This document shows positions 12,422 to 51,177 of a stretch of 64,000 nucleotides of DNA, in pieces. The translations under genes and the position numbers were made by a program. Location of the stretch: NCBI RefSeq assembly GCF_001428845.1, contig NZ_LMIU01000012.1:500857-564856 (forward strand), read 5' to 3'. The notes beneath the pieces were generated by a model, which was not told the origin of the DNA, did no database searches, and was given only the letters and a program-made list of their open reading frames with translations. Every line of letters starts with the position of its first letter. Within the stretch, counting starts at the first letter, position 1. The DNA comes from Achromobacter sp. Root83. Its GTDB lineage: Bacteria; Pseudomonadota; Gammaproteobacteria; Burkholderiales; Burkholderiaceae_B.

Positions 12422-12498
<77 letters not shown>

Positions 12499-12562: not shown

Positions 12563-12594
12563 AAAAAAGCCGCGACATTGTCGCGGCTTTTTTT
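12563..12594 (+). terminator. Intrinsic terminator after tRNA-fMet
   Basis: GCCGCGAC (12569-12576) and GTCGCGGC (12580-12587) form an 8-bp stem, with an A run before and seven T after. Confidence 0.9.
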
Positions 12595-12724
12595 CGTCTG
12601 TCCCTTGCCCTGGGTCAAACCATTGTTCCAGTCCGGAGTTTCCCGGATGCCGCTGTGCGCACAGGGGTGCGCCCCTGCGCTACCATGGGTCACGCGCGCT
12701 AGGTTGCCGCACAGAGGAGGGTCC

Positions 12725-13069
12725 ATGGGAACAGCGAAATACGATCATCCCGGCTATGTCGCCGACACTGGCTCTGAAGGCAAGTACCACGTGGGGATCT
12801 GGTGCCCCCACGGATATCCCGCCCATATCCACATTGGCCGTCCCGCCGAACTCGGCGATCCCCAGGCGTTGTTGCGCTTGCGGATACCGGACGGCGTGTT
12901 CCAGTCGCTTCCGGATGATCCCGAAACCCTGTGCCGCCGGGCGCTGGGCCAGGCCCTGGACGCCGGGCTGCTGCGTTCCGTCTCGGTGGACGGCGAATAC
13001 CAGGAGCTTCGTTTTCAGCTTGACGCCGAGCCGTGGTCCGGGCCCATGCAAGCGGCGGGCAACGCCTGA
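12725..13069 (+). CDS. Hypothetical protein
   Basis: The 114-residue acidic protein begins MGTAKYDHPGYVADTGSEGK and has an early segment rich in His, Cys and Trp (GIWCPHGYPAHIHIGRPAE). A strong ribosome site AGGAGGG precedes ATG 12725. No signal peptide or membrane helix and no family I recognise. It stands alone between the tRNA terminator and the second 79-bp repeat. Confidence 0.65.
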   Translation: MGTAKYDHPGYVADTGSEGKYHVGIWCPHGYPAHIHIGRPAELGDPQALLRLRIPDGVFQSLPDDPETLCRRALGQALDAGLLRSVSVDGEYQELRFQLDAEPWSGPMQAAGNA

Positions 13070-13391: not shown

Positions 13392-14630
13392 ATGAGCCCG
13401 CCCGCCAGGCGCGTCGCTGTCATCGGAGGCGGACCGGCAGGCCTGATGGCCGCGGAAGGATTGAGCGCCAGGGGAGTGCAGGTCGACGTGTTCGACGCCA
13501 TGCCCTCGGTGGGACGAAAATTCCTGATGGCGGGCCGTGGCGGATTGAATCTGACGCACAGCGAGCCATCTGGCCCGTTTCTGGCTCGTTACGGGGCGCG
13601 CGCCGCGTGCGTGGCGCCCTGGCTGGAGGTCCTTGACGCCGCGGGCTTGCGCGCCTGGGCGCATCGGTTGGGCATCGATACGTTCGTGGGATCCTCCGGC
13701 CGCGTATTTCCCCAGGAAATGAAAGCGGCCCCGCTGCTGCGGGCCTGGCTGGCCAGGTTGCGGGCCGGCGGCGTGCGCTTCCATATGCGGCACCGCTGGC
13801 TCGGATGGCCGCAGGGTGGCAAGCCTTGCGCGGGTGCGCTGCGCTTCGATACACCGGATGGCGAGACAACCTGCGCGGCCGATGCCGTCGTGCTTGCCCT
13901 GGGCGGCGGGAGTTGGGCCAAGCTGGGATCGGACGGCGCCTGGGCAGCGGGCTTGCGGGGGCATGGCATCGAGGTAGCCCCGCTGCGCCCCGCCAATTGC
14001 GGTTTCGACGTTTCATGGTCTGATCATTTCCGCGAGCGCTACGCGGGCCAGCCGGTCAAGCCGGTATCCATGGCCGCCGGCGGCATGGCCAGGCAAGGCG
14101 AGTTCGTCATTTCGGAAACGGGCATCGAGGGCAGTCTGGTCTATGCGCTGTCAGCGCCGCTGCGGGACCAGCTTGACGCTCAGGGCCGAGCTGTCGCCAT
14201 GCTGGACCTGGCACCGGACTGGCCGCAAGAAAAGGTCACGGCAGCGGTGACGCACCCGCGCGGCGCGCGCTCGATGTCCAGCCACCTGCAGAGCCGGCTG
14301 GGGCTGACCGGCGTCAGGGCGGGTCTGCTGCGCGAATGCGCCACCGCGGAAGATTTCCGCGACCCGGCCCGCCTGGCGCTGCGGATCAAGGCGCTACCCC
14401 TGACGCTGACGCGTACGCGTCCGATCGATGAGGCGATCAGCACCGCGGGCGGGGTGGCATTCGAGGGACTGACGGCGGGGCTGATGCTCAGCGCCGCGCC
14501 CGGCGTGTTCTGCGTGGGCGAGATGCTGGATTGGGAGGCGCCGACTGGCGGCTACCTGTTGACGGCGTGCATGGCCAGCGGTGCGGTTGCCGCCAAGGCG
14601 GTTGCGGCGTTTTTGGAAGGCGGTTCCTGA
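13392..14630 (+). CDS. NAD(P)/FAD-dependent oxidoreductase, BaiN/TIGR03862-like flavoprotein
   Basis: The 412-residue protein starts with an FAD-binding Rossmann motif (VAVIGGGPAGLMAAEGL) and has the MAGRGGLNLTHSE signature, the middle LALGGGSWAKLGSDG motif and the C-terminal VGEMLDWEAPTGGYLLTACM. This pattern is typical of the BaiN-like (HI0933) flavoprotein group, and the VGEMLDWEAPTGGY ending of its TIGR03862 branch. The physiological substrate is unknown. ATG 13392 is the first codon giving the dinucleotide-binding fold near the N-terminus. Confidence 0.87.
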   Translation: MSPPARRVAVIGGGPAGLMAAEGLSARGVQVDVFDAMPSVGRKFLMAGRGGLNLTHSEPSGPFLARYGARAACVAPWLEVLDAAGLRAWAHRLGIDTFVGSSGRVFPQEMKAAPLLRAWLARLRAGGVRFHMRHRWLGWPQGGKPCAGALRFDTPDGETTCAADAVVLALGGGSWAKLGSDGAWAAGLRGHGIEVAPLRPANCGFDVSWSDHFRERYAGQPVKPVSMAAGGMARQGEFVISETGIEGSLVYALSAPLRDQLDAQGRAVAMLDLAPDWPQEKVTAAVTHPRGARSMSSHLQSRLGLTGVRAGLLRECATAEDFRDPARLALRIKALPLTLTRTRPIDEAISTAGGVAFEGLTAGLMLSAAPGVFCVGEMLDWEAPTGGYLLTACMASGAVAAKAVAAFLEGGS

Positions 14631-14654
14631 GGCGGGCGGGCTGCCTGCCCGCGA

Positions 14655-15062
14655 TCAGGAGCCGGCAGGATAGGGCGACATGCTCAGCGGGGCTCGCGGC
14701 GCCAGATCGCCGACGACGTGGCCGACGACGGGCGGGCCGCCCTCCGGCTGCGTAATGATGCCGATGACCCGGGTGATCGCGCTGGCCGGGATGGCGGTGC
14801 CATGGGCCGGATCCTGCACGAGCTGCCAGATCGTTGCGCTTGCGGCGCCGGCGTCTCCGTCGAGCGAATCCGAGGAATCCAGGCAGCTCCGGGCAAAGAA
14901 TGACCAGTCCGAGGCGCTACAAGGCAAGCCGTGTGCCGTGGCCAAACGGGCCAGGGCCAGAGGCGCATCCGCCTGGCTCGCGGCGTGCTGGGCGGCAGTG
15001 CCCAGCGAGACGTCCAGCGACAGCAAGCGGAGAAACTCTACGACATTGTCGGTGTTCATCAT
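14655..15062 (-). CDS. Nif11-leader-like protein with C-terminal extension (tentative)
   Basis: The 135-residue product begins MMNTDNVVEFLRLLSLDVSL. Residues about 1-55 follow the spacing of Nif11-like leader domains: an N-terminal FL..., an aspartate then leucine, and later ALARLATAHGLPCSASDW, matching the LA..xG....D pattern. The last 80 residues are Gly/Pro/Ala-rich and unrecognised. It follows, by 56 bp, another small gene on the same strand. No RiPP-modifying enzyme is visible nearby, so the leader-peptide idea is only inference. Confidence 0.5.
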   Translation of the reverse strand: MMNTDNVVEFLRLLSLDVSLGTAAQHAASQADAPLALARLATAHGLPCSASDWSFFARSCLDSSDSLDGDAGAASATIWQLVQDPAHGTAIPASAITRVIGIITQPEGGPPVVGHVVGDLAPRAPLSMSPYPAGS

Positions 15063-15118
15063 GTGGTCTCCTGTGAGGGCTGTTCTGGTCTATCGCCGGC
15101 GGTCGGTTGGCGGGCGTG

Positions 15119-15478
15119 TCAGCCGGGGCCTTGGCCCAGCATCGATACCAGCGATTGTTTCAGGCGTGGCGAAAAAATTGGTACCGTATGCGATACACCG
15201 TTGCGGTCGATACCCTCTTTGAGTTCGACCGATTGCCCAAGGAAAATATCCGGCGCGGCGCCAATTTCGTTGTACCTGGCCAGCAGCTCATTCACGTGTT
15301 CCTGCGCGTCCGCAAGCGTACTGCTGTCGGCCAGCTTGCCGGCGGCGTGGGCTTGCAAAATTCGATGTAGATCGTCGATGAACAGCGCCAAAGCGGCCTG
15401 TCCGCGACATTGCGGTTGTTCCCAGCCCCAGCCTTGCGGGCCGGCGCCGGTGTTCTGCGATGCTTGTTTCTTCGTCAT
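15119..15478 (-). CDS. Hypothetical protein, partner of the Nif11-like gene
   Basis: The 119-residue protein starts MTKKQASQNTGAGPQGWGWEQ, has a Trp/Gly-rich N-terminus, then a helical region (LALFIDDLHRILQAHAAGK) and a tail containing IFSPRLKQSLVSMLGQ. It has no signal peptide and no family I recognise. It lies directly upstream of the Nif11-like gene, so the two probably form an operon. Confidence 0.55.
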   Translation of the reverse strand: MTKKQASQNTGAGPQGWGWEQPQCRGQAALALFIDDLHRILQAHAAGKLADSSTLADAQEHVNELLARYNEIGAAPDIFLGQSVELKEGIDRNGVSHTVPIFSPRLKQSLVSMLGQGPG

Positions 15479-15756
15479 TTGCGCATCCTAATCCATTGCC
15501 GCCAAATACGCGACAGGCGTTGGAGGCCCGGAAATGTCACCGTCGCGTAAGGGTGGTGACGGTTTTTCGCGGCCGCCGTTACAAGAGAACCCACTGGAAG
15601 GCCGGCGCAAAAGCGGGATGCGGTGCGGGCGCGGTTACATACGGGTGACGACGCGCCCGGCGACCCGCCGGGCCCTCCGGGCTTGTACGGCCCTGCGCAA
15701 AGCGGGGGCTTTGCGGTATCCTGGCTTCGGTTTCCACGCCCAGACAGGAGATGTTT

Positions 15757-15891
15757 ATGAAGAACAGAGTCTTTCTCGTCATGATGCTTTCGATTGCCGC
15801 GCTTTCGGCGGGTTGCAACACCGTTGCAGGGGCTGGAAAGGACATCCAGCGCGGCGGGGAAAAGATCGAGGGCGCTGCGGAAAAGAAGTAG
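15757..15891 (+). CDS. Entericidin-family small lipoprotein (copy 1)
   Basis: A 44-residue lipoprotein: MKNRVFLVMMLSIAALSAGC is the signal with lipobox SAGC, followed by NTVAGAGKDIQRGGEKIEGA. This is the EcnA/EcnB pattern (NTVxGxGKDxxxxGxxI). CAGGAG at 15745-15750 fits ATG 15757; the ATG at 15751 is too close. A terminator follows. A paralogue is at 51046-51177. The gap 15479-15756 upstream shows a GTCACC/GGTGAC dyad but no other gene. Confidence 0.88.
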   Translation: MKNRVFLVMMLSIAALSAGCNTVAGAGKDIQRGGEKIEGAAEKK

Positions 15892-15924
15892 GCCATCCAG
15901 ACCGGCTGCCGCTCTGACGGTTCG

Positions 15925-51045: not shown

Positions 51046-51177
51046 ATGCGTGGCAAGATCGTGCTGACCGCCTTCGTCGTTTTCGGGTTTGTGCTGGCCG
51101 GTTGCAATACCGTCGCCGGCATGGGCAAGGATATGTCGCGGGCCGGCAATGCCATCACCAACGCCGCCGATAAATAA
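51046..51177 (+). CDS. Entericidin-family small lipoprotein (copy 2)
   Basis: A 43-residue lipoprotein: signal with lipobox LAGC, then NTVAGMGKDMSRAGNAITN. It matches copy 1 at 15757-15891. CAGGAG is well placed before ATG 51046. It is 39 bp after the FAH gene and is followed by a strong terminator. Confidence 0.88.
   Translation: MRGKIVLTAFVVFGFVLAGCNTVAGMGKDMSRAGNAITNAADK

Follow-up and report, generated by a model that had tools for sequence, protein, structure and literature searches.

Members of the genus Achromobacter carry a conserved pair of small genes whose downstream product, here called the Nif11-like protein, bears a weak and remote resemblance to the Nif11 family (PF07862) that is probably not due to chance. 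The reading we favour, tentatively and with slightly less than even confidence, is that the pair forms an Achromobacter operon in which this protein would serve as a stand-alone cytoplasmic adaptor that docks by means of a remote Nif11-type domain and acts together with the product of the upstream gene, here called the partner. The pair had been pointed out in a preliminary description of the window, i.e. the whole stretch of 64,000 nucleotides from Achromobacter sp. Root83 that was analysed. The present analysis puts two unnamed conserved protein families on record.

Locus, reading frames and transcription unit

The two-gene unit was recovered as described beforehand and consists of two minus-strand open reading frames for products of 119 and 135 amino acids, with the gene of the Nif11-like protein starting 56 bp behind that of the partner (Table 1). 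The former gene begins with two successive ATG codons, the second of which (position 15059) is the start used by most orthologues and gives a product of 134 amino acids. A purine-rich AGGAG-like site occurs at most 15 nt from the gene start in 26 of the 27 other orthologous loci. Third codon positions hold most of the variable sites (109 of 208 variable columns for the partner and 124 of 236 for the Nif11-like gene), and each alternative reading frame is interrupted by stops in 12 to 28 of the 28 sequences. Together with the dN/dS values, this pattern demonstrates that both open reading frames are genuine genes under purifying selection.

Partner and Nif11-like gene are adjacent, in the same order and on the same strand, in all 27 named Achromobacter loci, with gaps of 40-77 bp; gene order was scored by the start of the reading frame, and three deviant listings are upstream-extended reading frames according to their coordinates. 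Gene distance and conservation suggest that the pair is co-transcribed as a small operon of Achromobacter. We state this as an inference because no sigma-70-type promoter was found within 14500-15900 and because two weak terminator-like sites (6-pair stems) are located on the minus strand within the partner gene.

Table 1. Features of the window that are referred to in the text.
Feature	Position	Strand	Remarks
Upstream partner gene, 119 aa	15119..15478	-	Open reading frame; mean dN/dS 0.085 (27 orthologues, each against the window copy)
Downstream Nif11-like gene, 135 aa	14655..15062	-	Open reading frame; 28 orthologues aligned; mean dN/dS 0.153 (27 orthologues, each against the window copy)
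Putative ribosome-binding site AGGAG of the Nif11-like gene	15068..15072	-	5 nt ahead of the first ATG
Nif11-like N-terminal domain, residues 2-62	14877..15059	-	dN/dS 0.056; invariant columns
Variable linker, residues 63-76	14835..14876	-	dN/dS 0.643, 24 usable comparisons
Conserved C-terminal segment, residues 77-123 (IWQLVQDP...VVGHVVGDLAPR)	14694..14834	-	dN/dS 0.081
Variable C-terminal tail, residues 124-135	14658..14693	-	dN/dS 0.305
HI0933-like flavoprotein	13401-14630	+	E 5.9e-66; convergent with the Nif11-like gene
Small conserved protein with WCPHGYPAHIHIG motif	12578-13069	+	No Pfam match; synteny kept in 27/27 named Achromobacter loci, also in g15 loci
Entericidin-like short lipoprotein gene	15751-15891	+	Pfam Entericidin, E 4.3e-9
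Second entericidin-like short lipoprotein gene	51046-51177	+	Motif only
tRNA gene	12422-12495	+	Sole Rfam match at gathering score in the window

Distribution and synteny

Of the 29 sampled genomes that belong to the genus of the window, 28 encode the Nif11-like protein, each with a single gene copy; the protein was absent from every other genus sampled (250 genomes of the bacterial family). The one exception within the genus, G240, is an assembly of 1430 contigs; it also has no match to the partner's own subgroup of its family (group A, see below) and retains just a weaker one that resembles the second paralogue, par2. A scan of 84,980 species, which was seeded by two conserved peptide patterns and which distant forms could escape, returned 27 named relatives, all from Achromobacter. 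By profile, no relative outside the genus passed E 0.001 among 151 genomes, and the matches obtained there (best E 0.00175) were attributed to chance as they showed partial coverage or contained stops.

Such a confinement to one genus is what would be expected if the Nif11 likeness were due to convergence or chance. In that case the gene would be an orphan restricted to Achromobacter, which may have arisen or been captured between the genes for the flavoprotein and the partner, and its product would have a helical N-half with the spacing common to short helix bundles and still act as a small adaptor or regulator. We regard this origin as doubtful but as a serious possibility, and the evidence from Nif11 profiles that bears on it is given below.

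As far as the stretches reach, the 27 named Achromobacter loci share a block that runs from a gntR-type regulator through a small unnamed gene, the WCPHGYPAH gene and the HI0933-like flavoprotein gene, which is convergent with the pair, to the pair itself, which is flanked on its other side by an entericidin gene, a lipoprotein-like gene and pyrB. The nearer entericidin-like gene of the window is divergent from the partner gene, and likewise in several Achromobacter and related loci. At two loci (L062 and L071) of genus g15, which we take to be Bordetella, the block includes the partner but lacks both the flavoprotein and the Nif11-like gene, and at a locus of genus g5 (L063) the flavoprotein is positioned head to head with the partner, again with no Nif11-like gene. 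The presence of the partner alone at these loci argues that the Nif11-like gene joined an already existing partner gene in the Achromobacter lineage; that no such gene lies between the corresponding neighbours in the Bordetella-like loci also suits an orphan gene. The partner does not need the Nif11-like gene, since it is conserved in g15 and others where that gene is missing. Co-conservation of the pair, which the preliminary description had suggested checking, thus holds within Achromobacter, whereas the partner is widely present without the Nif11-like gene.

A pair of small neighbouring genes, of which the second has an acidic product (pI 4.59), might also constitute a toxin-antitoxin or similar module in which the partner and the Nif11-like protein are each other's antidote. 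However, the pair occupies one fixed syntenic place by pyrB across the genus and is not mobile, the partner is widespread on its own, there was no PADLOC or PHROGs match, and no plasmid match was found for the partner. We therefore rejected a toxin-antitoxin or defence role, which lacks any family match and is at odds with the fixed synteny, as extremely improbable.

Resemblance to Nif11

An N-terminal region with the spacing of Nif11-type domains had been proposed from the sequence, with a PF07862 search as the check. The outcome of this search was divided. The window's Nif11-like protein had no Pfam match at E <= 10, whereas 3 of the 28 orthologues matched PF07862 in a whole-library Pfam search, with a best E of 0.043 that does not reach the default threshold of E <= 0.001. 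Besides Nif11, a single other Pfam family was matched, by one orthologue. When the window's own genome was searched with PF07862 (curated cut-off 23.8 bits) at E <= 10, six other, unrelated places matched with 11-15.7 bits and the Nif11-like gene did not. The preliminary description would have given up the Nif11 likeness in the absence of both a PF07862 match and N-terminal conservation; it survives in part because conservation of the N-terminal segment is very strong, while the PF07862 matches stay below significance.

A profile of our own was built from 18 Nif11 domains of other Proteobacteria, taken from 229 and 249 sampled genomes. Left out were L084, L087 and L090, which have no clean reading frame in the stretch, as well as L092, L134 and L136, in which the N-terminal domain was not clearly distinct or was a near copy; one of the repeated copies was kept for L130/L137 and for L138/L139. 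With this profile all 28 orthologues scored between 7.1 and 14.5 bits (8.9 bits for the window protein), compared to 18-67 bits for true Nif11 members in leave-one-out searches. The score of 8.9 bits was reached by 2 of 5600 composition-preserving shuffles and by none of 587 N-termini of other genes, and 5 of 6483 66-residue tiles scored at or above the window protein. All tiles exceeding 8.9 bits in a larger set of 17362 came from L080-L082, which had been chosen for a weak PF07862 match and are biased controls; the best score otherwise was 8.4 bits. Profile-profile alignment by hhalign gave a probability of 81% (P 1.2e-5), with an aligned region that spans residues 2-55 and keeps register with the start Met. 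An earlier 8-member profile gave 24% (P 8e-4); the figure is thus profile-dependent. The sequence alignment to Nif11 is co-linear from the first Met of the Nif11-like protein.

Part of these data speaks for convergence or chance, since the window protein is without any Pfam match and the PF07862 search of its own genome was blank at this gene while unrelated places scored. On the other hand, Nif11 is the top Pfam family of the orthologue set and had been proposed from the sequence beforehand, shuffles and N-termini of other genes rarely or never reach the score, and the alignment starts at the initial Met. On the strength of these profile comparisons, we consider the resemblance weak and remote but probably not a product of chance, and descent shared between Nif11 and the N-half of the protein appears on balance the likelier origin.

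Architecture of the Nif11-like protein

The N-terminal domain is near-invariant across the 28 orthologues, and Cys48 and Cys60 are invariant in their alignment. The 80-residue Gly/Pro-rich tail described beforehand was an overstatement. Of the last 80 residues, 9 are Gly and 9 are Pro (22%), with Ala being the commonest residue (12), and the region really falls into three parts, namely a linker that varies, a segment that is conserved and a short tail that varies again. AlphaFold2 predicted four helices (residues 4-16, 18-28, 33-43 and 50-65 in the 135-aa numbering), with pLDDT values mostly of 60-76 in the N-half; there is no reliable model after residue 60, and the conserved C-terminal segment has no predicted fold (pLDDT <50). 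This model and that of the partner were built on 28-row alignments composed of Achromobacter sequences only. Searches of the PDB with the Nif11-like protein returned nothing at E <= 0.001, and VIA-align Z scores were at most 3.9. A simple scan revealed no membrane- or signal-type stretch in either protein of the pair (maximum 19-residue Kyte-Doolittle means of 1.10 and 0.86), and the Nif11-like protein is presumably cytoplasmic.

A resemblance of the N-half to Nif11 raises the question of a RiPP precursor, in which this half would be the leader and the C-terminal 70 residues the core, with modification enzymes encoded elsewhere in the genome and export through an ABC transporter that carries a peptidase. 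One such transporter, of the C39-peptidase type and with a HlyD-type neighbour gene, is indeed encoded on contig 1, far from the Nif11-like locus. However, the presumed core is conserved (Table 1) rather than hypervariable, and no Cys occurs after residue 62 in any of the 28 orthologues. Neither a conserved Gly-Gly nor a GA is present at the linker junction in these 28 sequences, and the GG near residue 107 falls within the conserved segment and varies. There is no paralogue expansion, each of the 28 genomes having one copy. The N11P model was absent among the NCBIfam matches of the 28 orthologues at E <= 10. No modification enzyme was detected among 10 neighbour genes scanned, in agreement with the preliminary description, which had seen none nearby.

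That description had left room for a distant enzyme and suggested a search for LanM- or cyclodehydratase-like genes elsewhere in the genome. The two enzyme models searched, YcaO (PF02624) and LanC-like (PF05147), had 0 matches in the own genome, and positive controls worked. As far as these two enzyme types go, a RiPP role with a distant enzyme is unsupported, and, with the tested signs of a RiPP absent, the non-RiPP role is the better of the two options that had been offered. We rejected the precursor as very unlikely on the grounds of the conserved core, the lack of Cys and Gly-Gly and the lack of YcaO or LanC in the genome; cleavage of the Nif11-like protein into a leader and a core is improbable.

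The transporter locus on contig 1 (L140, 170033-170416), with a Peptidase-C39 ABC transporter followed by a HlyD-like gene, is likely an exporter of double-glycine peptides.

The partner protein and its family

The first 16 residues of the partner are predicted to be disordered and are followed by a conserved WGWxxPxCRG motif and an alpha-alpha-beta-beta-alpha body. In the AlphaFold2 model (mean pLDDT 68.8), the disordered N-terminus leads into two helices, which are followed by a beta hairpin and a final helix. The partner had been described as having no recognisable family. This was borne out for Pfam, PHROGs and PADLOC, which yielded no match, and for NCBIfam, which yielded one match at chance level (E 0.078), but the protein is a member of an unnamed family that is widespread, with matches in 113 of the 250 genomes sampled from the same bacterial family, distributed over 28 of 43 genera. 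The protein family was not seen outside this bacterial family: of 229 genomes sampled at class level 1 matched, and of 150 sampled at order level 3 matched, all of them from this bacterial family.

Many genomes contain two paralogues of this duplicated small-protein family, in which the partner is a group-A member. The genome of the window encodes the partner itself (par1) and a second paralogue (par2) about 74 kb away at C12:590011-590322. An alignment of 25 members (A2) has the invariant positions W17, G18, G26, A29, F33, D36, Q59, L65, Y69, F79, S103 and L106, and the partner displays the features of the family, namely a WG-x(3-4)-C-x-G motif, a two-helix body, and a GQS[IV] and SP/SxLKQ region. 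Tandem diverged paralogues are frequent in the family (L060, L061, L075 and others), and several of these tandem pairs are neighboured by two further products (clusters c2 and c4), an unnamed secreted one and a small membrane protein.

Several candidate relatives of the partner were considered and dismissed. By Foldseek, the best match had an E of 0.25, with scattered winged-helix names and an rmsd of about 8 A, and no PDB match reached E <= 0.001. The best VIA-align hit, to the tail sheath of phage P1 (9ay3; Z 6.1 over 72 residues at 2.7 A), lies in a score range common for this tool. Sequence matches in the PDB (keratin with E 0.0031 for the partner, the rest with E >0.03) look like coiled coil or chance. 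Pfam matches of single family members, among them tRNA_anti-like (0.029) and SpoIISA_toxin (0.013), involved few of the 25 members and were taken as chance. The partner and the Nif11-like domain are not relatives of each other either, as hhalign aligned 3 columns with a probability of <1.

Proposed role of the pair

The adaptor reading supposes that the Nif11-like protein acts whole, as an unprocessed product of 13.7 kDa, in the cytoplasm. Its helical N-terminal domain would dock on another protein, most simply the operon partner, and the flexible linker would tie this Nif11-type domain to the conserved C-terminal segment, which might present a second binding surface. We favour an intact adaptor because the protein combines two conserved blocks with a free linker between them, shows no signs of processing and has a fixed place behind the partner. 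Contact with the partner and the adaptor role are proposed from sequence features and gene order. Distances of the partner and the Nif11-like protein among 28 species gave a partial rank correlation of 0.51 after two neighbours had been taken into account, compared to 0.19 with the adjoining flavoprotein; as the pairs are not independent, the correlation carries no probability value and is a mild hint only.

As a single-copy, genus-wide and strongly conserved putative Nif11 relative without signs of a RiPP, with a fixed partner and in a culturable host, the protein would make a non-RiPP role of this domain genetically testable. If the Nif11 likeness were the result of convergence, the gene would be an ordinary genus-specific orphan.

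Comparison with known systems

Literature searches on Nif11 domains, also with regard to Achromobacter and Bordetella, and on Unk10 of Synechococcus yielded no report of this gene pair. Compared to Nif11 (PF07862) and N11P (TIGR03798) proteins as characterized in the relevant part of PMC2887384, the protein is similarly small and has an N-terminal domain anchored at the start Met that is predicted to be helical, and it appears to share with PF07862 the spacing FL-x5-D-x2-L ... ALAxxAxxxGL-x2-S-x2-D. Unlike the proteins outlined there, it stays below PF07862 significance and has neither a Gly-Gly nor a hypervariable core rich in Cys, Gly and Ser; unlike N11P in the same part of that paper, it is without paralogue expansion and has no modification enzyme or transporter nearby. 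The case is that of a Nif11-like protein outside a RiPP context, and its likeness may be convergence.

A conserved rather than hypervariable C-terminus is shared with the group F Nif11 proteins of marine picocyanobacteria, for which the pertinent section of PMC10783134 gives the N-terminus MALDQL and a conserved GEYH/N end. In contrast to the Nif11-like protein, group F members, according to that section, have a much shorter C-terminal part and are clear members of PF07862. Two Nif11 proteins of Proteobacteria (L083 and L085) with a MALDQL start and a GEYN end resemble group F as it is portrayed there.

The closest published parallel of the Achromobacter pair appears to be Unk10/Unk14 of marine Synechococcus. 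According to the relevant passages of PMC3877281, Unk10 has 107-118 amino acids, with an N-terminal Nif11 domain of about 43 residues (Nif11 match E 2.3e-8), and Unk14 has 121-123 amino acids and a paralogue in all strains, the two genes being head-to-head in only four strains; the function of Unk10 was still given as unknown in the corresponding part of PMC10904595. Both cases involve a single Nif11-domain protein of about 110-135 amino acids beside a protein of about 120 amino acids that has a more widespread paralogue (PMC3877281, same passages). Unlike the Achromobacter protein, Unk10 is there credited with a significant Nif11 match and a place in a chromatic-acclimation (photosynthesis) island, and Unk14 and the partner are compared here by size and context. 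A further-reaching proposal, which we put forward as rather unlikely, is that the pair is a non-RiPP two-protein device whose Nif11-type domain would be a docking module for a dedicated small partner. Taken together with Unk10/Unk14, docking in housekeeping complexes, and not peptide maturation, would then be a general role of Nif11 domains, from which its role as a leader would have been recruited.
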